Below are positions 3,877 through 12,528 of a stretch of DNA of 15,785 bases, piece by piece. The position numbers were made by a program, and so were the translations under genes. How positions within the stretch are numbered: position 1 is the first letter of the stretch; each line of letters opens with the position of its first letter. Below the pieces are notes generated by a model. It did no database searches and was not told where the DNA came from. It was given only the letters and a program-made list of their open reading frames with translations. The DNA is taken from contig JALGZR010000087.1 of NCBI GenBank assembly GCA_025774805.1, forward strand, positions 1 through 15,785, in the 5' to 3' direction. The stretch comes from a bacterium. Its GTDB lineage: Bacteria > ARS69.

Positions 3877-4059
3877 CTGGCCCGCATTTCTCACCAGGCT
3901 CGTCGCGAGGCTCAAGGATAGTCGTGTCTGGCGAGAAGATGCGGGGCTTTCGCCGGAGGCGGGGCCGTAGCCCCGTCGCAGGGTGGAAGCTCCGCAACGA
4001 CGAAGCCAGGCGCGGCTTTGCCGCTGCCGCAGCAGAGACTGGTGAGAAATGCGGGCTAG
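3877..4059. repeat. Inverted-terminus intergenic element, copy A (intact, 183 bp)
   Basis: The two ends are near-perfect inverted repeats of each other. CCCGCATTTCTCACCAG at 3881-3897 pairs with its exact complement at 4039-4055. The flanking four bases are CTGG on the left and CTAG on the right. The interior is GC-rich and full of short hairpins, for example CGGGGC-CGTA-GCCCCG (3960-3975) and GCGGC-TTT-GCCGC near 4013-4025. No reading frame of note is present. It lies 76 bp downstream of the OmpA-family gene. The same element recurs at 6849-7030 and, degraded, at 6201-6437 and 11731-11890. It resembles a MITE or a REP-like unit. Confidence 0.85.
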
Positions 4060-4135
4060 GGAAGGCCGCTGCAGAAGACCGCTGGGGAAGGGGTGTGGCT
4101 TGGGAGCGCGGGTCGATTCGCACGGCGGGGCGCCG

Positions 4136-5983
4136 CTACTCGAGCTCCACCTTCGGTGGCTCCGGCTCCTCCGGTAACTCGAGCTCGATGTCCTCGTCGA
4201 GGTCCGGCATTATCGCGTCCGGGGGAAGTTCGATCTCGCCGACCTTGTCCGCGCCGGCGTCTTCGGTGGCGTCCGACGCCGATGCTCCCGGCTCCTCGCC
4301 GAATTCCTCGTCGAAGTCGGCGCCGAACTCCGCATCGAAGTCGGCGTCGAACTCCTCATCGAACTCCTCGTCGAAAAAGCCGCCCAGATCCTCTTCCTCT
4401 TCGTCGGCACCGAAGTCGTATTCCTCGGGCGGATCGCCGGGCGAGAGCACGAGCACTTCGATGCGTCGATTCGCGGCCCGTCCCTCTTCGGTCGTGTCGC
4501 TCGAGATCGGCATCGATTCGCCGTACCCGGTGGCCACCAGGTTGTTCGCGCCCATGTCGTAGAAGGTCTCGAGCAGATACTGTCTCAACTTCGTGGCCCG
4601 GCGCTCGCTCAGCTCCTGGTTGAACCCGGCCGCACCGATCCCGTCGGTGTGGACCCCGATCTCGATCTTGAGCGGTCTCTCCTCGTTGCCGGTCCAGCGC
4701 TCCAGGAGCACCGCCACCTTGTTGATCGCGTGGAACGAGAGGGGCTCGATCTCTTCGCTGCCCGGCTCGAACTCGGCTTCTTGCACGATGATCTTGTCGC
4801 CCTGGAGCAGTTGTTTCTCCAGCGGGTTCTCCGCGCACCCGTCGTTGTCGACCCCGGCGCCGAGCGGGGTGTTCTCGCACAGATCGAGACCGTCCAGGAC
4901 GCCGTCCTCGTCCGTGTCGAAGTGGCGTCCCTGCGCATCCACGAGCGCTCCGATCGGAGTGTCGTTCATCAGATCGAGCCCGTCGAAGACGCCGTCCTGA
5001 TCGGAGTCGCTCGGACATCCCACGAGGTCGACGGTCGCGCCGATCGGTGTGACATCGCACTGGTCGAGCCCGTCGAAAACGCCGTCCTGATCCGAGTCGA
5101 TTCCGCAACCCACGCCATCGACGACCACTCCGGGGGCGGTCGTGGGGCAATCGTCGAATCGGTTGGCGATCTCGTCGCCATCCGCGTCTTTCCAGACCCA
5201 TCCGAATGGGAAGGAGACGCTCGCGGTGACGGCGATGTTGTTCAGCCACCGACGGCCCCGATAGTCGACCGGGCTGTAAGGTTCCTGCAGGAAGACCCCA
5301 TCGTCGCCGCCGCCGGTGAACAGATCCCGTTGCGCCGCCAGGAGCGGCGCGCGCGGGTTTTCGCGCGGGAGGTCGCTCTTTCGCGCCACGAGGTCGCGCA
5401 CGTCGAGCCGGAACGTGAAGCCGCTGGGCCGAAAGTACTTCAGACCGACCCCGAAGTCGAGGAATGCATCGGAGAAGGGGCCCGGGGGTTCCTCATCGGC
5501 ATTGCTGAGATCATCGAGGAAGCCTCCCCCGATGCTGATGAACGGACGGAGCCGCTGCTTCGTGACGTGAAGCAGAAACGATCCACCGACCATGAGCAGG
5601 TCCGTGTCCACCTCGTTCGAGATCCCGCGGGTCTCCAGGTCGGTGATCACCGCGCCCACGATCCGGTTTTCGGCGTCGAAGACGTACTGAAACCTGTAGG
5701 ATTCGAGCATTCCCTCGCGGTAGCTCTGCGTCTGGCCGGGGGAGACCGCGACGGTTCCTTCGAACGCCCACCAGGCCGAGTTGTTCAGCGTGAGGCGCAA
5801 ACCCGTGAGTGGAGTCGCGGAGCTGTACTGGGCGTTGTCGTCGAGCTGCAAGACCCCGAAGACGGGACTCACCTCGAGGATCCGCTCGTGGACGCCGTCC
5901 GCGGAGACCGGGCCGGAAGCCGCCATTAAGAGGGCTGCTCCCCCCGCCACGAGACCGAAGCGTGCCCTGCCGGCGAGCCTCAT
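4136..5983 (-). CDS. OmpA-family outer-membrane protein with TSP3 calcium-type repeats and acidic tail
   Basis: This 615-residue protein has a signal peptide (about residues 1-28) and a beta-barrel-like region (about 30-260). Four Asp-rich thrombospondin type 3 repeats follow (about 264-385, DxDxDG cores at 266, 296, 326 and 356). Next comes an OmpA C-terminal domain (about 395-513) that should bind peptidoglycan; Asp447 and Arg461 (in NQELSERRA) sit where the diaminopimelate-binding residues occur. It ends in a strongly acidic tail (about 518-615) with FDEEFDEEFDADFDAEF-like repeats. It would anchor the outer membrane to the cell wall, with the TSP3 stalk probably binding calcium. GAGGGAG lies 4 nt before the chosen ATG. 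The acidic tail after the OmpA domain is unusual, and the third TSP3 repeat has lost both cysteines. It appears to be transcribed alone. Confidence 0.93.
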   Translation of the reverse strand: MRLAGRARFGLVAGGAALLMAASGPVSADGVHERILEVSPVFGVLQLDDNAQYSSATPLTGLRLTLNNSAWWAFEGTVAVSPGQTQSYREGMLESYRFQYVFDAENRIVGAVITDLETRGISNEVDTDLLMVGGSFLLHVTKQRLRPFISIGGGFLDDLSNADEEPPGPFSDAFLDFGVGLKYFRPSGFTFRLDVRDLVARKSDLPRENPRAPLLAAQRDLFTGGGDDGVFLQEPYSPVDYRGRRWLNNIAVTASVSFPFGWVWKDADGDEIANRFDDCPTTAPGVVVDGVGCGIDSDQDGVFDGLDQCDVTPIGATVDLVGCPSDSDQDGVFDGLDLMNDTPIGALVDAQGRHFDTDEDGVLDGLDLCENTPLGAGVDNDGCAENPLEKQLLQGDKIIVQEAEFEPGSEEIEPLSFHAINKVAVLLERWTGNEERPLKIEIGVHTDGIGAAGFNQELSERRATKLRQYLLETFYDMGANNLVATGYGESMPISSDTTEEGRAANRRIEVLVLSPGDPPEEYDFGADEEEEDLGGFFDEEFDEEFDADFDAEFGADFDEEFGEEPGASASDATEDAGADKVGEIELPPDAIMPDLDEDIELELPEEPEPPKVELE

Positions 5984-6200
5984 GTCGCTCCCTCTCTCGT
6001 CAGCCCTGCCGCAGACCCCCCCGCGGAGGGCACTGCAGGGCCCGGAGCCCCGCCTCGTTCGCTCGCAGGGGTCTCTCGAGGCCGAAGGCCGTTCGCCAAA
6101 CTCCCATAGATCCGGGGAACGGAATGGCCAATGTGCATCATAACTTCCCCCTTGTCAACGCGATCGGGGGAATCGACGGTCGCGCGTCCACGCTCGGCGA
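5984..6200. promoter_or_regulatory. Upstream region of the OmpA-family gene, weak promoter
   Basis: This non-coding stretch is the leader and promoter region of the OmpA-family gene. A perfect TTGACA on the minus strand (6158-6153) is the best -35 candidate. At normal spacing the -10 (CACATT) is poor. A TATGAT (6142-6137) is a better hexamer but lies only 10 bp away. The start site is therefore unresolved, and the leader could exceed 130 nt. No gene is visible. Confidence 0.35.
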
Positions 6201-6437
6201 CTGCCCTGCAACCCTTACCGGCCCCATAGCGAGGCGGTGGATCGTCGTCTCGGGCGAGGAGATGGGGTGCCTTCGCCCGAGGCGGGGCCGTCGCCGCTCG
6301 GCGGGACGGATGCGCCGCAGCGGCACTCCTCGCCCGTATCTCTCACCAGGCGCGGCACAATGGGTGGGGGCAAGGCACGGCGGGGGCGGCGCGGCCTTGC
6401 CGCCGCCGTGGCCGGGGCGGGTGAGATCTGTCGGCTA
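6201..6437. repeat. Inverted-terminus intergenic element, copy B (composite or decayed)
   Basis: The left boundary (6201-6221) matches the family terminus at only 13 of 21 positions. The interior at 6225-6300 follows the family pattern (GCGAGGC, then TCGCCCGAGGCGGGGCCGTC). A second, better left terminus appears inside at 6332-6349 (CCCGTATCTCTCACCAGG, 16 of 18 identical to copy A). The right terminus (6417-6437) runs into the spoVG stop codon. Two left ends and one right end suggest one element inserted next to or inside another. Confidence 0.65.
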
Positions 6438-6734
6438 AGGGGCCTGGTCCGAAACAGCGAGGTCCACATCGGAATCCATCGCAAGGACTTCCTGGTCGTA
6501 GGCGGAGAGAACCACACGCTCCAGATACGCCCGGGTCTCGCGATTGATGGGGTGCGCGATGTCCTGGAAGGTCCCGTCTTTCTTTTTCCTCGCGGGCATG
6601 GCAACGAACCGCCCATCCGCCCCCTGAATCACCTTGAGTCCGCGGATGACGAACTCATTGTCCAACGTGATCGACACGAAGGCCTTGAGTACTTCCTCGT
6701 CTTGGAGGTTCACGCGCACTTCGGTGATTTCCAT
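6435..6734 (-). CDS. spoVG: SpoVG family nucleic-acid-binding regulator
   Basis: This 99-residue protein begins MEITEVRVNLQDEE, the standard SpoVG start, and contains the family core (LDNEFVIRGLKVIQG, FVAMPARKKKDGTFQDIAHPI). SpoVG proteins are small dimers that bind DNA and RNA and act as pleiotropic regulators (sporulation and septation in Bacillus; virulence and metabolism elsewhere). Nothing here suggests sporulation, so a general regulatory role is more likely. The frame extends 23 codons upstream, but I chose the ATG at 6734 because it matches the family N-terminus and has GGGAG about 8 nt upstream. The TAG stop is part of the terminus of repeat copy B, so the element starts exactly where the gene ends. 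It is flanked on both sides by repeat copies and seems to be transcribed alone. Confidence 0.93.
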   Translation of the reverse strand: MEITEVRVNLQDEEVLKAFVSITLDNEFVIRGLKVIQGADGRFVAMPARKKKDGTFQDIAHPINRETRAYLERVVLSAYDQEVLAMDSDVDLAVSDQAP

Positions 6735-6794
6735 TCGAGTGTCTCCCGGCTGCCGTTGTCCTCTCCAGCGCAGTATCGGACTCCTGAGTTCAGG

Positions 6795-6823
6795 TTTCAA
6801 CAAATCTTGCGGCCTGTTGTCAA
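6795..6823 (-). promoter_or_regulatory. Putative spoVG promoter
   Basis: On the minus strand a perfect TTGACA (6823-6818) is followed after 17 bp by TTGAAA (6800-6795), a weak -10 hexamer. Transcription would start near 6788, giving a leader of about 54 nt. The region is visibly less GC-rich than its surroundings, which supports a promoter. Confidence 0.45.
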
Positions 6824-6848
6824 GCTTTGCAAATCTGGCCGAACCCTT

Positions 6849-7030
6849 CTAGCCAGCATTTCTCACCAGGCTCGTCGCGAGGCTGCGGATCGTCGCGGCC
6901 GGCGAGGGGATGGGGGGCTTTCGCCCGGGGCGGGGCCGTAGCCCCGTCGCAGGGCGGTAGCGCCCCAGCGACGAAGCCAGGCGCGGCTTTGCCGCGGCGG
7001 CAGCAGAGGCCGGTGAGATCCGCAGGCCAG
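6849..7030. repeat. Inverted-terminus intergenic element, copy C (intact, 182 bp)
   Basis: The left end (6849-6869) is CTAG followed by CCAGCATTTCTCACCAG, one base different from copy A over the 17-base core. The right end (7010-7030) is a partial inverted match (CCGGTGAGAT..., ending CCAG). The interior is very like copy A: the hairpin CGGGGC-CGTA-GCCCCG at 6931-6946, and the shared string AAGCCAGGCGCGGCTTTGCC near 6974. It has the same orientation as copies A and E. It sits just upstream of the spoVG promoter. Confidence 0.85.
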
Positions 7031-7207
7031 GCACCGGCGTTTGATGAGAATCGGGATCCGGAATCTCGGCCCCGGAGCTGCCCGGTGGACCGGGAAGACC
7101 GGGTCCGGCCGAGGAACGGCCTCCGGTCAGGAGAAAGCAGCGGAAGGGAGTGGCCCGGGCACCCGGGCCGATCGGGCGCGGGGTTCGGTCCGTCGGCGCC
7201 GGATCGG

Positions 7208-7279
7208 CTAGCCTTTATTTCTCTCCCAGCTCTGTTGCGGAAGCAGTCCGCAACGGGCCCGGTGAGAATTGCAGGCCAG
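7208..7279. repeat. Short inverted-terminus element, copy D (72 bp)
   Basis: The left end (7208-7229, CTAGCCTTTATTTCTCTCCCAG) and right end (7259-7279, CCGGTGAGAATTGCAGGCCAG) are recognisable versions of the family termini. The interior is only about 30 bp and is replaced by a single perfect hairpin, GTTGCGG paired with CCGCAAC around a 7-nt loop (7234-7254). It looks like an internally deleted or separate short form of the same family. Confidence 0.65.
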
Positions 7280-7475
7280 GATCTGTCCAACTCTTGACAC
7301 TTCAACCACTTGGGGATAAGCGCGGTTTCGACACGGGAGTGGATCTCCGTAGTGCGTGTCTTCTCAATGACTTATTCGCTTCAGAAGATGCCTGGCCGAC
7401 TTGTCCACATATCCACAGCGGTGGATGTCTCTGGAAGATCTCAGGGCGGTTCAGCGCAGCGCGATCGGGTCCCGC
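7280..7475. other. Non-coding, relatively AT-rich gap with DnaA-box-like sites; candidate origin region
   Basis: This gap has no gene and is much less GC-rich than its neighbours. It contains three 9-mers one mismatch from the DnaA box TTATCCACA: TGGGGATAA (7311-7319, opposite strand), TTGTCCACA (7401-7409) and ATATCCACA (7409-7417, sharing one base with the previous one). A short stem ATCCAC-AGCG-GTGGAT (7411-7426) overlaps them. The nearby parAB and parS make an origin plausible, but three imperfect boxes are modest evidence. A plus-strand TTGACA at 7294-7299 with TAAGCG 17 bp later may be a promoter facing right, although no plus-strand gene follows. Confidence 0.4.
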
Positions 7476-7931
7476 TCACTCCCCGATCTGCACCTGGCCC
7501 CGAAAGCGGAGACCGTCCTCCATGACCATGTTCTTGGCCTGGATCTCCCCCTCGACGTCGCACCCCGTCTGGACCTCGACGCGGTCCTCGGCCTCGATCT
7601 TCCCCCGGAACCGACCGTTGAGGACCGCCCGGCGGGTCTTCACGTCCGCTTGGACGTCCCCGCTCTTCCCGACGACGAGGCTCTCACCCGCCCGGATCGT
7701 TCCTTCAGCGGTCCCTTCGACCCGAAGGGTTCCCGCGACCTCAGCCGTTCCCGTGAACTTCGCGCCCTCGGCCAGAACGGTGGCCGCGCCGCCGCTCGCG
7801 ACGCTCTTGGCCTGCGGTGCGGGGGGAACGGCGGGCTCCGCCGGGGCGGGCGAGGAGCCTGCGCTCGGGGTCGTCCGGTCGGGCATTCCCGCCGGCTCGG
7901 TCTGCTCGTCGCCCGTCTTCTTGTTGAACAT
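7476..7931 (-). CDS. Bactofilin family cytoskeletal protein
   Basis: This 151-residue protein has a disordered Pro/Ala/Ser-rich N-terminus (about residues 10-48). A bactofilin (DUF583) domain follows (about 50-150), built of regular short beta repeats (GTAEVAGTLRVEGTAEGTIRAGESLVVGKSG...). Bactofilins polymerise without nucleotide into filaments that scaffold peptidoglycan enzymes and help set cell shape. The gene follows an M23 peptidase by 40 bp. That pairing is well known, since bactofilins partner with LytM-type peptidases, as in Helicobacter, where the bactofilin CcmA works with the M23 peptidase Csd1. I chose the ATG at 7931 because GGGGAGAG lies 7 nt upstream; a TTG two codons earlier is too close to it. 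The protein is probably cytoplasmic and membrane-associated. Confidence 0.92.
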   Translation of the reverse strand: MFNKKTGDEQTEPAGMPDRTTPSAGSSPAPAEPAVPPAPQAKSVASGGAATVLAEGAKFTGTAEVAGTLRVEGTAEGTIRAGESLVVGKSGDVQADVKTRRAVLNGRFRGKIEAEDRVEVQTGCDVEGEIQAKNMVMEDGLRFRGQVQIGE

Positions 7932-7971
7932 GTGCAATCTCTCCCCTTGACTTCGTGATGGGTTCGCTCGC

Positions 7972-8724
7972 TCAGAAACCGGAGGCGAGCAGATAGCTCG
8001 GATCGATCAGCTCCTCCTCGAGGCGCACCTCGAAGTGGACGTGGGGCGCGCTGGAGCGCCCCGTGTTCCCGAGGGTCGCGACGACGTCGCCGCGCGATAC
8101 CGGGTCTCCCGTGTTCACCAAGAGGGAATCGTTGTGGCCGTACCGCGTCGTGAATCCGTTCCCGTGATCCAGAACCACGGTCCTTCCGAGATCTTCGTCC
8201 CAGCCGGCGAAGCGAACGACTCCGACCGCCGAGGCCCGAACCGGGGTTCCGGTCTCTCCGACGAAGTCGATCCCCGGGTGCCCTTCCGGGCCGGCTTCGA
8301 AGCCCCGGGAGATCCAGCCCTCCACGGGCGAGAGTGCCGGGATCTCCTCCAGGAGCTCGTCCTCCCGCTCCCACCGGACCTGGCGGCCGGGTTCCGATCG
8401 CATGGACTCCGCGTTCGGCTCGATGCCCGCCCATCGACGGATGCGGGTCTCGAGCTCCTGCAGACGGATGACCTCCGCCTCGAGTCCGTCGACGCGGCGC
8501 ACCTGGTCTCGCAGCGCGGCGTTCTCCTCACGGAGAGAGACCACCTCCCGCGCTTGTGAGGAGAGCTCCGCCACCTGGAGCAGCAACATGAAAAACCCCA
8601 GGACCAACGCCAGGGAGACCACCCCGATTCCCAACAGAACCGGCAGGGGAACGACGCGACTCCAGCTCTTCGAGCTCCGGTGCGGAGCCAGAATCACGGA
8701 GACCTTGCGCGAACGCTCGAACAT
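7972..8724 (-). CDS. Membrane-anchored M23 (LytM) family peptidoglycan endopeptidase
   Basis: This 250-residue protein has a basic N-terminus, one transmembrane helix (about residues 24-49) and a Leu/Glu-rich coiled coil (about 52-97). A C-terminal M23 domain follows (about 143-236). The zinc ligands look intact: His149 and Asp153 in HPGIDF, and His230 in HVHF, with His228 and His197 as the other conserved histidines. It should therefore be a catalytically active periplasmic endopeptidase cutting peptide cross-bridges, unlike the degenerate LytM activators. The ATG at 8724 follows GGGGAGAGGG by about 5 nt. The longer frame to 8793 would begin inside the predicted promoter. With the bactofilin 40 bp downstream it likely forms a cell-shape operon, the bactofilin positioning the peptidase. 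Confidence 0.93.
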   Translation of the reverse strand: MFERSRKVSVILAPHRSSKSWSRVVPLPVLLGIGVVSLALVLGFFMLLLQVAELSSQAREVVSLREENAALRDQVRRVDGLEAEVIRLQELETRIRRWAGIEPNAESMRSEPGRQVRWEREDELLEEIPALSPVEGWISRGFEAGPEGHPGIDFVGETGTPVRASAVGVVRFAGWDEDLGRTVVLDHGNGFTTRYGHNDSLLVNTGDPVSRGDVVATLGNTGRSSAPHVHFEVRLEEELIDPSYLLASGF

Positions 8725-8783
8725 CGTCCCTCTCCCCGAGAAGAGCGGCTCCCTCCCGCTCATCCCGAGCGAGCCGGGGCCGA

Positions 8784-8812
8784 CTCTTAGCACCGCCCCC
8801 CACGGGTGTCAA
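8784..8812 (-). promoter_or_regulatory. Promoter of the M23 peptidase-bactofilin unit
   Basis: On the minus strand a perfect TTGACA (8812-8807) is followed after 17 bp by TAAGAG (8789-8784), the same spacing as the beta-barrel promoter. The start would be near 8777, about 53 nt before the ATG at 8724. This supports that ATG over the upstream one at 8793. Confidence 0.5.
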
Positions 8813-9257
8813 GCCGGGCCCGGAGGGTCCCGGTTCACCTTTTTCGGGGTGTGGTGGCCAGTCCTCGGCCCAGGAACGATGCCCCCTCCGAGGCCCACCC
8901 CACGGCCTCCCACACTTTCCCTCACATCCCCCCATTCGGCCCGTTTCTCCCCAAACTTGACCTCAATTCCCCCATTCCTGTCCCCTTCCCGCAATCCCTT
9001 CCCACCCGCGTCGGAGTCTTCCTCGACCCGCCGAGTGGGCGCCTCCCCGGACGGATCACCACGATCAACATCCCTTCCCAATCCCCCTTCCATCCCGAGC
9101 CCTCCGTCCGTTCGGGCCGGCCGCAGCACCCCCCTTCTCCGCTCTCACGGACTTCGCCCGGTCCGCCTCTCCGATTCCCTCCCACTCCCCACCGCCGTCC
9201 CTCCACGGCGGACTCCACAGCGCGGGGTGTGGGGCTGCTGATCCCACCGGGACCGCG
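8813..9257. other. Long pyrimidine-rich non-coding tract with G-quadruplex motif
   Basis: I see no gene here. The plus strand is rich in C and T: by my count 44 of 60 bases at 8881-8940 and 47 of 60 at 8941-9000 are pyrimidines. On the minus strand, 8911-8882 reads as four runs of three or more G separated by loops of 7, 1 and 7 bases, a canonical G-quadruplex pattern about 70 bp upstream of the M23 promoter. Open frames across it are low-complexity Pro/Ser/Arg products and look non-coding. Confidence 0.55.
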
Positions 9258-9291
9258 AATGACCGACCGAAAAAACTTTCGGTCGGTCATT
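9258..9291. repeat. Perfect 15-bp inverted repeat
   Basis: AATGACCGACCGAAA (9258-9272) pairs perfectly with 9277-9291 across a 4-base spacer (AAAC). It lies about 100 bp downstream of the parB stop, in otherwise featureless sequence. As RNA it would fold into a stable hairpin and could end the parAB transcript, but there is no T-tract after the stem on either strand. The GACCGACCG half-sites also recall some TetR-type operators, although here the halves are separated by an A/T-rich centre. Confidence 0.75.
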
Positions 9292-9388
9292 TCTCGCCCT
9301 TGTTCGCCGGATTCAAGGTTCAGATGACCCACCAGGAGTGGAGATTCGCCCTGTTTGGCATGAGCCGGCGACCGCCCGGTGCAAAGGC

Positions 9389-10282
9389 TCAGCGCCCTCG
9401 GGGGCTGGCGGGGGATCTCTCCTCGGCCTGGAGCAGCAGCTCGAGCAGGCGACCGAGGTCGTCGTAGGAGTAGAAATCCAGGGAGACCCGGCCCCGCCCT
9501 TTCCGGTCGTGGATCTGCACGAGGGTCCCGTAGGCCCGTTGGAGTCGCTCCTCGAGCTCACGCGTCTCGGGAGAGACCACGCGGGTGGTCTTTCGACGCC
9601 TTTTTCGTCGGGGCGGGGTCTTCGGAGTCGATTGCTCCTCGCTCTCGCGGACCGAAAGGCCCTGGGAGAGAATCCGGTCTCGGAGGGCGTACATCTCCTC
9701 AGAGGAGGAACAGGCGAGCAGGGCCCGGGCGTGGCCGGGAGAGATCGCGGAGGACATCACGTCCGCCTGGATGTCCTCGGGCAGTTGGAGGAGGCGAAGC
9801 GTGTTCGCCACGTGCGCCCGGCTCTTCCCGATCTGGCGGGCGATCGCGCCCTGGGTCCATTCCCCCGCGTCGGCGAGCGCCTGATAGGCCATGGCCTCTT
9901 CGATCGGGTTCAGGTTCTCCCGCAGGAGGTTCTCGATGAGGGAAAGGGGAAGCATCTCGTCATCGGGCGTCTCGCGGACGAGGGCCGGGATCCGCTCGAA
10001 GCCCGCCATCCGGGCCGCCCTCAGGCGCCGCTCCCCCGCCACAAGCTGATAGGAGTCCGGAGCGGTCGAGCGGACGACGACGGGCTGGAGGACGCCCTGG
10101 TCCCGAATGGAGTCGGCCAGGGCCGTCAACTCGTCCTCGGCGAACTCCTGGCGCGGCTGGGAGGGGTTCCGCTCGATCGCGTCGATGGGAAGGGAGTGGA
10201 TTCGCGTCCCCTCCTCCTTCGCCAGGGCCGTCGTGCTCGGAATCAGTGCCTCCAGGCCCCGCCCGAGACCTCGCTTGGTCAT
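9389..10282 (-). CDS. parB: Chromosome-partitioning protein ParB (Spo0J family)
   Basis: This 297-residue protein has the full ParB plan. A typical KRGLGRGLEALI start is followed by the CTP-binding N-terminal domain with GERRLRA (residues 83-89) and ENLLRENLNPIEEA (117-130). A helix-turn-helix (about 142-166, TQGAIARQIGKSRAHVANTLRLL) should read parS, and GHARALL sits at 183-189. Next come a very basic linker (PPRRKRRRKTTR, about 223-234) and a C-terminal dimerisation domain (about 236-285). It loads onto parS, spreads as a CTP-dependent clamp and works with ParA to segregate the origin. The start overlaps the parA stop (ATGA), with AGGAGGG 5 nt upstream, so the two are translationally coupled. 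A parS site lies 1.4 kb upstream. Confidence 0.97.
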   Translation of the reverse strand: MTKRGLGRGLEALIPSTTALAKEEGTRIHSLPIDAIERNPSQPRQEFAEDELTALADSIRDQGVLQPVVVRSTAPDSYQLVAGERRLRAARMAGFERIPALVRETPDDEMLPLSLIENLLRENLNPIEEAMAYQALADAGEWTQGAIARQIGKSRAHVANTLRLLQLPEDIQADVMSSAISPGHARALLACSSSEEMYALRDRILSQGLSVRESEEQSTPKTPPRRKRRRKTTRVVSPETRELEERLQRAYGTLVQIHDRKGRGRVSLDFYSYDDLGRLLELLLQAEERSPASPRGR

Positions 10283-11163
10283 GGAATCCCTCCTTTCGTC
10301 GCGACGAGCCCTTCGGGGGCCGTCCTCGGGGCGGGACCGATGGCCGACCTCTCACGATTGATCATCTCACCCGCGAGATTCATGTAGCTTACGGCGCCGG
10401 GCGAGAGGATGTCGTAGAGAATGATGGGCTTGCCGTGGCTCGGAGCTTCCCCGAGCCGGACGTTCCGGGGTACGACGGTCTCGAACACCTTGCCCCCGAA
10501 GTGGCTTCGCGCCTCCTCCGCCACCTGCTGGGACAGATTCAGACGGCGGTCGTACATCGTCAGCAGGACCCCCTCGATCTCGAGGTCGCCGTTCAGATTG
10601 CGCTGGACCAGACGAATCGTGTTGAGGAGCTGGCTCAGGCCCTCCAGAGCGTAGTACTCACACTGGATCGGGACGAGGACCGAGTCGGCCGCCGTGAGAG
10701 CGTTCAAGGTCAGGAGCCCGAGAGAGGGCGGACAGTCGAGGAAGATGTAGTCGTAGTCGCGCCTGACCTCTCGAATCGCCGTGCGGAGCTTGGTCTCCCG
10801 TGCCATCACCCCGACCAGCTCGATCTCGGCCCCCGCCAGCTCGGGATTCGAGGGCACGAGATCGAGAAACGGCACGCCGCTGGGATGAATGACCTCGTGC
10901 AGCTCTCGGTCGGCGAGAAGCACCTCGTAGACCCCTGGGACGCCCTCCCGGTCGAAGAGGCCGAGCCCGCTGCAGGCGTTCGCCTGGGGGTCCATGTCGA
11001 CGAGGAGGGTCCGACGCTCCGAGGCGGCCAGGCTCGCGGCCAGATTCACTGCCGTGGTGGTCTTGCCGACCCCGCCCTTCTGATTCGTGATGGCGATGAC
11101 CCGGGCGCGGGCTGGGTCGCTCTCGCGCCGGGGCTCCTTCGGGCTCTCCCTCTCGGCGACCAC
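10279..11163 (-). CDS. parA: Chromosome-partitioning ATPase ParA (Soj)
   Basis: This 294-residue P-loop ATPase has the deviant Walker A motif QKGGVGKTTT (about residues 28-37, with signature Lys29), LLVDMDPQ (about 54-60), Walker B FLDCPPSLG (about 141-149) and the RNVRLGEAPSHGKPI motif (about 233-247). These mark a chromosomal ParA/Soj. It binds DNA when ATP-bound and is stimulated by ParB to pull origins apart. The start is uncertain. I prefer GTG at 11163 because a very strong AGGAGGAGG sits 6 nt upstream; an ATG at 11181 overlaps that motif and has a weaker site. The frame continues to 11352 without support. The C-terminus overlaps parB by four bases. Confidence 0.96.
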   Translation of the reverse strand: MVAERESPKEPRRESDPARARVIAITNQKGGVGKTTTAVNLAASLAASERRTLLVDMDPQANACSGLGLFDREGVPGVYEVLLADRELHEVIHPSGVPFLDLVPSNPELAGAEIELVGVMARETKLRTAIREVRRDYDYIFLDCPPSLGLLTLNALTAADSVLVPIQCEYYALEGLSQLLNTIRLVQRNLNGDLEIEGVLLTMYDRRLNLSQQVAEEARSHFGGKVFETVVPRNVRLGEAPSHGKPIILYDILSPGAVSYMNLAGEMINRERSAIGPAPRTAPEGLVATKGGIP

Positions 11164-11181
11164 GGGGGACCTCCTCCTCAT

Positions 11182-11668
11182 CCGAACCGCTTCCCTCACC
11201 TCGACCCCACGGGGACTCCCTGACAGTCGGGCTCCGGGCCCGTGCCGTCTGGGGAGCGATCCCCGAGCGCTCTGCGGAGACGCGCGTGCGCCAACCATTG
11301 CGGCCGATGCAGAGCTCGAGCCCGGTCCCCCGGAGGAGTGTGCCCAGAACATACAACACGCCCCTGGGATCGGGGAGTGTTTTCAGAATGTGACGTCGGG
11401 GAAGACCGGTGGATAAGTTCCGGTCTTCTCCGGGATTGCCCGACGTCAAGGGGCGGAGATCCCCGACAGGCAGGCGATTCCCACCGGTGGCCATTTGGGA
11501 AAGCTGTCAGGTAGAAGTGGGCTATCTGTGGGTATCTCACCTCGGCGCGGGTACCCGCGGAGATCGTCAAGGCCGAGACCGGCCCACCGATCCCCCCGAT
11601 CCTGCTGCGGCAGGGTGAAGCGCTGCCTGGAGAAGGATGCGGCCTGAGTGTCGTATTCTCTCGACGGT
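11182..11668. other. Non-coding leader region upstream of parA with nested inverted repeat
   Basis: No credible gene is seen. At 11391-11448 two perfect inverted repeats are nested. The outer pair is TGACGTCGGG with CCCGACGTCA (11391-11400 and 11439-11448). The inner pair is GAAGACCGG with CCGGTCTTC (11401-11409 and 11420-11428). The 10-base inner loop carries TTATCCACC on the minus strand, one mismatch from a DnaA box. This lies roughly 230 bp upstream of parA, so it may be a regulatory leader structure or a protein-binding site. A clear parA promoter is not evident. Confidence 0.55.
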
Positions 11669-11684
11669 TGTTTCACGTGAAGCA
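11669..11684. promoter_or_regulatory. parS centromere-like site (ParB binding)
   Basis: The 16-mer TGTTTCACGTGAAGCA matches the widely conserved chromosomal parS consensus TGTTTCACGTGAAACA at 15 of 16 positions. The single change, near the right end, breaks the perfect palindrome but leaves the central TTTCACGTGAA intact. It lies between rsmG and parA, 1.4 kb from parB, the expected place for an origin-proximal parS. Confidence 0.88.
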
Positions 11685-11730
11685 CCCCACGGCTGGTGCC
11701 TGCAGTCACCCCGCACAGGAGGGAGGAGGC

Positions 11731-11890
11731 GCTCGTCGCGAGGCCGCGAACCGCCTTCGCGGGCCGAAGAGGGCGGGCCTCCGCCCGAGGCGGGGCGGTA
11801 GCCCCGTCGCAGGGCGGCCGCGACGTGACGACGGCCCCGGGCGCGGCTTCGCCGCTGCCGCACCAGGGGCTGGTAAGAGATGCTCGCTAG
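11731..11890. repeat. Inverted-terminus intergenic element, copy E (left end lost)
   Basis: The interior matches copies A and C: GCTCGTCGCGAGGC at the left, the hairpin CGGGGC-GGTA-GCCCCG (11791-11806), then GCGCGGCTTCGCCGCTGCCG. The right terminus (11870-11890) matches copy A at 17 of 21 positions and ends in CTAG, which contains the stop codon of rsmG. I cannot find the left terminus, so this copy is truncated or decayed there. Its orientation is the same as the others. Confidence 0.75.
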
Positions 11891-12528
11891 ATCGCGGAGC
11901 CCATCCGCCGGAGGGCGGTCACCGGGGCCCCCGAAGAGTCCGTCCAGAGGATCCGGTCCTTCGGCTCCCCGACGACTCCATCGGGACTGTCGGGATTCTC
12001 GAAGACCCAGAAGCCCCCGCTCCCGTCGAGAAGCGGTTCGACGGACTTCCCGAGCCGTTCCCGGTCTCCGACCGCCCGCGCGAAAGCGAGCTCGAAAGGG
12101 GCCCGCTCGATCACGGAGGCGGGTGACGCCTCGACTCGCCCCCAGTGTACCTCGCAGTCGAGAAGCTCCAGCTCGCGGATCACGTCGCTCAGGAAATCGC
12201 ACTTCCTTTGCACGGCTTCGACCAGGTCGAGGCGGACACGTGGACGCAGGATCTTGAGGGGGATTGCGGGGAAGCCACCACCGCTGCCGATATCGAGCAC
12301 CCGAAGTCGCGCGTCCCGGCACACCAGCCGAAGAGTGGCCAGGCTCGGGACCACGTGGTTCTCGACGACCCGCGAGGCCGTCCGCCGGGAGATCAGGTTC
12401 ACGTGACGATTCCGACGGGCGAGCCGCTCCAGGAAGGCGGCCAGTCGTTCCGGCCAGTCCGGTGGTCCCCCGCCTTCCCGGTCCACCAGACCGCCGAGGC
12501 AGTCCCGCAGTGCCGGAGCCGAGGTCAT
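11887..12528 (-). CDS. rsmG: 16S rRNA (guanine-N7)-methyltransferase RsmG
   Basis: This 213-residue protein is a Rossmann-fold SAM-dependent methyltransferase. RsmG hallmarks are visible: RHVNLIS (about residues 41-47), the SAM-binding loop [15 protein letters not shown] (77-91), the motif [11 protein letters not shown] (103-113) and ARAV (150-153). RsmG methylates N7 of G527 in 16S rRNA (E. coli numbering) in the decoding region. The start overlaps the mnmG stop (ATGA) and GGAGGG lies 4-5 nt upstream, within the end of mnmG. The length is normal for the family. The TAG stop is part of the CTAG end of repeat copy E, so an insertion may have set the C-terminus; the last residues (RRMGSAI) should be compared with relatives. 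Confidence 0.95.

Follow-up and report, generated by a model that had tools for sequence, protein, structure and literature searches.

A CTAG-flanked family of palindromic repeats with IS1380-like ends in a bacterial draft genome

Introduction

Bacterial MITEs such as Correia/NEMIS, RUP, ERIC and Nezha are geneless, intergenic repeats of 70-300 bp that carry terminal inverted repeats (TIRs) of 15-30 bp and fold strongly (definition in PMC3733652). GTAG-tagged REPs and REPINs, which occur with RAYT, are likewise palindromic and intergenic, and their terminal tetranucleotide gives TAG stop codons to neighbouring genes (PMC3733652). IS1380 insertion sequences, whose duplications measure 4-5 bp (PMC12116815), encode a transposase of ~450 aa and have ends of the type CCCGNATWWTTCACNA adjoined by YTAR. 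IS1380 serves in turn as the outgroup of piggyBac, a eukaryotic group with miniature derivatives, whose ends start with CCC and whose palindromic four-base target is TTAA, rarely TTAG or CTAA (PMC10813416).

Here we analyze a repeat family found in a window of 15,785 nucleotides (the whole stretch of DNA under study, from assembly GCA_025774805.1), which is part of contig C30 in a draft genome of 5.1 Mb (completeness 96%, contamination 5%). The repeats resemble IS1380 sequences in their ends, CCYGCATWTCTCACCAG, and in the YTAR that adjoins them, and differ from them in being ~175 bp long, in encoding nothing and in their subterminal motifs CGTCGCGA and GCAGCAGA, which were not seen in the IS ends inspected. 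Compared to bacterial MITEs as defined in PMC3733652, they are of fitting size (43-183 bp), non-coding and multi-copy, with TIRs of 17 bp; what sets them apart from the MITEs named above is their CTAG/YTAR target and their IS1380-like ends. Unlike GTAG REPs and REPINs, they display CTAG at both ends, paired together, and 17-bp inverted repeats, and no Y1 transposase was detected. A palindromic four-base target and CCC-starting ends are held in common with piggyBac, whose hosts are eukaryotic; the main target here is CTAG, with TTAA seen in one genome of another phylum (G275). The closest genomes available for comparison were four members of the same family belonging to other genera, the remainder sharing the domain only.

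Results

The original prediction placed five copies of an intergenic, hairpin-rich element in the window, with shared termini, a uniform orientation and a position downstream of minus-strand genes. Copies A and C stood as full-length elements, whereas the second proved to consist of two elements in a row (B1 and B2), D turned out to be a decayed short form and E to be missing its left end. The predicted CGGGGC-N4-GCCCCG apical hairpin and the GCGGCTTTGCCGC motif were both present. The features are as follows, in window coordinates.

3877..4059, plus strand: copy A, full length, 183 bp, both 17-bp ends intact; flanks CTGG (decayed CTAG) and CTAG
6201..6322, plus strand: copy B1, right side truncated, model positions 5-122
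6329..6438, plus strand: copy B2, short element of 110 bp immediately following B1; the spoVG-like gene takes its stop codon from the right end of this copy
6435..6437, minus strand: TAG stop codon of the spoVG-like gene (6435-6734, minus), within the terminal tetranucleotide of B2
6849..7030, plus strand: copy C, full length, 182 bp; flanks CTAG and CCAG
7208..7279, no strand assigned: copy D, decayed short form of 72 bp; flanks CTAG and CCAG
11731..11890, plus strand: copy E, interior full and right end present, left terminal repeat missing, model positions 22-182
11887..11889, minus strand: TAG stop codon of rsmG (11887-12528, minus), within the terminal CTAG of copy E

Genes were called with our own codon-usage script, which recovers the known genes of the window; none was called within the window copies of the element, and Rfam 15 returned no match in the window at gathering score. 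The uniform orientation applies to A, B, C and E but not to the genome at large, where 12 of the 40 full copies lying between co-directional genes run with the genes and 28 against them. The position downstream of minus-strand genes is correct but trivial, as the gene calls in the window are all minus-strand, and the density near a probable origin is not special, copies of the family being distributed genome-wide.

The window further contains a parS-like site, TGTTTCACGTGAAGCA, at 11669-11684 between rsmG and parAB (a single mismatch to the consensus, with no such site expected by chance); a scan of genome contigs with ParB yielded distant relatives only. Four DnaA-box-like sites with at most one mismatch to TTATCCACA (0.4 expected) are found at 7311-7417 and 11408-11416, three of them clustering right after copy D, a possible replication origin. 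The 12-bp tandem repeats at 4292-4396 correspond to the acidic (Asp/Glu-rich) tail of an OmpA-domain protein (4136-5926).

Analysis of the genome confirmed that the window repeats are real and far above chance, and that their shared termini define a family. Ends with at most one mismatch numbered 95 + 95 genome-wide, compared to 0 for the reversed pattern, and none was found in 59 other genomes searched. The end matrix identified 283 ends in 1.52 Mb, against one match on one strand when the sequence was read backwards. Using a profile of full copies together with this matrix, at least 127 two-ended copies were identified in 2.3 Mb (45% of the genome), 70 of them of ~182 bp and 57 corresponding to internally deleted short forms of 43-110 bp, in addition to 17 truncated copies; the contigs examined were picked partly for having matches, and the copy density is not to be extrapolated to the whole genome. 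Copy A, used as a query, retrieved 39 further near-full-length matches with 88-95% identity. The family is thus neither confined to the window nor a product of GC-rich composition only. No match to the element was found in viral contigs, plasmids or phages. Divergence among full copies had a median of 12% (2.2% for the closest pair, with a median of 6% between nearest neighbours), and the family is an old burst that is now decaying.

Each copy is bounded by CTAG and terminates in the 17-bp inverted repeat CCYGCATWTCTCACCAG (21 bp including CTAG), the consensus layout being CTAG-CCTGCATTTCTCACCAG-GCTCGTCGCGAGGC ... CGGGGCCGTAGCCCCG ... GCCGCAGCAGAGG-CTGGTGAGATATGCAGG-CTAG. Upon folding, the ends pair over 17 bp and the whole element forms one long imperfect hairpin. 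In each of the 69 full copies, folding favours the same strand, namely the one whose left side has CGTCGCGA (mean -126 vs -99 kcal/mol), and the G-U pairs of the consensus are in excess on this strand. At the variable end positions 7 and 10, the two ends of one copy tend to match; the tree of the interiors, which is poorly resolved, leaves the state of a copy at these positions unexplained.

CTAG flanks both ends of 45 of the 127 copies, and most of the others are one or two changes away from it. Outside the elements, this tetranucleotide was observed 452 times in 2.3 Mb, compared to 6,867 expected by base composition and 1,789 by a second-order model, amounting to a ~15-fold and a ~4-fold depletion, respectively. 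TAG stop codons account for 188 of the 356 CTAGs that lie outside the elements and are not internal to genes. Forty-nine elements provide the stop codon of a neighbouring gene with one of their ends. In 10 of these, the two ends act as the stop codons of two convergent genes, coding scores being high for almost all of the genes concerned. The share of stop codons is not higher among elements (49:74) than among free CTAGs (188:168), and the gene contexts of the elements match those of free CTAG sites, with a slight convergent excess (p = 0.04). Target choice therefore explains the location of the repeats at 3' ends. CTAG sites common to two convergent stop codons are still in excess, being occupied in 10 of 14 cases (p = 3e-5 vs single stop codons). 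Two tandem pairs have a single CTAG in common, as would be expected if one element entered the CTAG of another, and flanks of the non-palindromic type were found once in direct and twice in inverted relation. The two-sided CTAGs, together with the stop codons and tandem CTAGs that are shared, would fit a duplication of the target on insertion, but the site is palindromic.

The better-folding strand was the non-transcribed one in 28 of the 40 full copies between co-directional genes (p = 0.017; 26 of 38 and p = 0.03 upon exclusion of the window copies), a weak bias that would fit a tendency to keep strong hairpins out of mRNA.

Private substitutions, occurring in no more than two copies, are placed randomly relative to the fold (-0.5 +/- 0.7 kcal/mol), whereas those that are widely shared preserve it (-5.2 +/- 0.8 kcal/mol); constraint, if any, was therefore exerted on the lineage that was spreading. 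Comparison of the two ends on the transcribed strand gave as many G-U as A-C mismatches (33:33), and derived events over the whole fold stood at 32:28 (interior) and 16:14 (ends). RNA selection at the insertion sites was rejected on the grounds that G-U equals A-C. Selection on the structure after insertion left no sign, and the structure seems to have been constrained during mobility instead. Because subfamilies are disregarded in shuffling, a column-shuffle energy z-score of -14.6 was not considered to prove selection, and the split between private and widespread substitutions was used in its place.

The element has no coding content and encodes no DDE_Tnp_1_4 transposase. No transposase domain of the IS4/IS5 type (PF01609) or of IS630 (PF13358) was detected in the genome, and a whole-genome search for Y1/RAYT (PF01797) gave no match, 5 of 14 control genomes being positive. 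The only transposase trace found here was a C-terminal remnant of IS1380 (PF13701; L291, contig C17, 1747-2085) with no recognisable ends. Its membership in the genome is doubtful because of a lower GC content (61%, compared to a mean of 68%), and it could be foreign or misbinned. Four end pairs located 1-2 kb apart in this genome were rejected as transposons, each involving a degenerate copy of the element.

For comparison, 29 IS1380 loci bearing the transposase were collected from other genomes. The best end scores in their correctly oriented flanks were 16, 15, 14, 14 and 14 of 17; in shuffled flanks, a score of 14 was reached in 0.1% of trials. The match of 16 lies beside the G275 transposase; as G275 itself has ~100 such ends, this match was discounted, leaving 15, 14, 14 and 14 as the best scores. 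Over all 29 loci, the correct orientation beat the wrong one modestly (p = 0.04), as IS1380-family ends vary. CTAG-CCCGCAAAACTCACCAG was found just upstream of the transposase at L300 and CCCGGATATTTCATAAA at both ends of L294, with TTAG on both sides, while L293, L295 and L315 read YTAR-CCCG at TTAG, CTAA and CTAG sites, respectively. None of the genomes examined showed an intact IS1380 gene between ends identical to those of the element, and G152 has 70 such ends yet only a weak PF13701 match. A 1-kb end-bounded segment of G275 (L345) was rejected as a transposon, its longest open frame being unlike a transposase by eye. The element is possibly a derivative of the IS1380 family rather than a member of it, since it is devoid of coding content.

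Exact ends are abundant in two genomes of other phyla, with ~100 in G275 and 17 in G152 (70 when one mismatch is allowed); a sample of 386 genomes yielded, beyond these, a single end in each of only two others. Full elements from G275 and G152 are mostly 172-190 bp in size and have in common the motifs (C/T)TCGTCGCGA on the left and GCAGCAGA on the right, as well as an apical hairpin. A sequence profile restricted to the interior does not find them, and a covariance model built from this genome matches them end to end, yielding 79, 67 and 62 bits with structure vs 43, 40 and 32 without it for L341, L353 and L372, respectively. The foreign elements form 92% of the model pairs, with the caveat that any long palindrome would also pair well. 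Pairs changed on both sides amounted to 31 of 59, compared to 21.5 in shuffles, in an alignment that leans toward structure, having been fitted to it and including both strands of one element as separate entries. Of 22 foreign elements, 21 likewise fold better on the strand with CGTCGCGA at left, in one case by a margin below 1 kcal/mol; copies within one genome are related, and the independent cases of strand bias number three to a few more. The same ends and hairpin plan and a length of ~175 bp are present in at least three phyla, with unrecognisable interiors, a combination for which no precedent was found in the literature searched.

G275 (L342, L326) and G152 also harbor same-ended elements with TTAA on both sides, as well as short near-perfect hairpins consisting of the two ends around CCTCGTCGCGAGG.

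Discussion

The ends, copy number, CTAG junctions and stop-codon junctions of this repeat family, the age of its burst and its relatives in other phyla were all shown by the analysis. We consider it likely, from the sequence features described above, that the repeats represent a non-autonomous, IS1380-type (piggyBac-like) MITE that targets CTAG and was moved in trans. The MITE-like nature proposed in the original prediction agrees with the multiple copies, the terminal inverted repeats, the fixed target tetranucleotide, the CTAG common to tandem copies and the similar IS1380 ends found elsewhere. A transposase of the IS1380 family, acting in trans, would recognise the 17-bp ends and join the element to a palindromic site, CTAG here and YTAR in relatives, so that each side retains CTAG. 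Surviving insertions would fall between genes or exactly at stop codons, the latter being restored, because the genome nearly lacks CTAG and TAG stops make up half of its CTAGs outside coding sequence. An IS1380 enzyme is probably the mover, CTAG would be duplicated on insertion, and a miniature element of this type accounts for the ends, target and location. The long hairpin would matter, if at all, during mobility rather than to the host afterwards.

Strand-polar hairpins, with the same strand folding better here and in nearly all foreign elements, are also what one would expect of a REP/REPIN-type element, in which the folded strand, moved as single-stranded DNA by a Y1 (RAYT-like) transposase, would serve as substrate, with cleavage at the flanking tetranucleotide and no target duplication. 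GTAG REPs likewise give TAG stop codons to their neighbours (PMC3733652), and the mixed relation of the non-palindromic flanks leaves target duplication unproven. REPs, however, have an unpaired GTAG at one end (PMC3733652) where the present repeats have CTAG at both ends of 17-bp inverted repeats, the matching ends sit on IS1380 elements, and the Y1 domain was missing from the genome search, against the RAYT-associated, REP-like family that the original prediction had also considered; we regard this explanation as improbable. Retention as a 3' structure, the other proposal made for the copies, would have them kept at gene ends since the transcribed hairpin protects or terminates mRNAs. The great stability of the fold, the excess of consensus G-U pairs on one strand and the high occupancy of convergent double-stop CTAG sites speak for such a structured RNA or terminator. 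For single insertions, however, the site follows CTAG availability, with stop-codon and context shares not above those of free CTAG sites, private substitutions ignore the structure, and the transcribed strand has no excess of G-U over A-C. Given, in addition, that the better-folding strand is mostly the non-transcribed one and that Rfam returned no match, a role as RNA is very unlikely. Overall, the original prediction was partly supported.

A plain MITE model does not predict the fold and strand bias conserved across phyla, for which there are two options. Palindrome correction (template switching between arms) combined with shared descent, rather than selection on the fold, may account for the match between arms and for the hairpin plan, as suggested by end positions 7 and 10 matching each other across copies without being grouped by the interior tree and by post-insertion changes in which G-U equals A-C. 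It leaves unexplained the strand preference of folding, which is the same in the three phyla, and the length of ~175 bp that they have in common, and we entertain it tentatively. Alternatively, the repeats could belong to an ancient, cross-phylum family of mobile hairpins in which, besides the IS1380-type ends, the ~175-nt fold and its strand polarity were selected, one strand folding as ssDNA or RNA during mobility. Such a role for the folded strand is possible and somewhat doubtful in our view; if true, it would make this a mobile element defined by its shape and not by its sequence or genes.

With regard to an IS1380-type miniature element, target choice explains why the repeats are found at gene ends: for an element targeting CTAG in a genome that avoids it, stop codons are a main safe harbour, and one CTAG site can serve two convergent genes. 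Our findings further suggest that the ends, length and hairpin plan of a miniature element can persist over three phyla despite turnover of its interior, a retention of shape that is not expected of ordinary MITEs and that makes the role of structure in the spread of the element testable.
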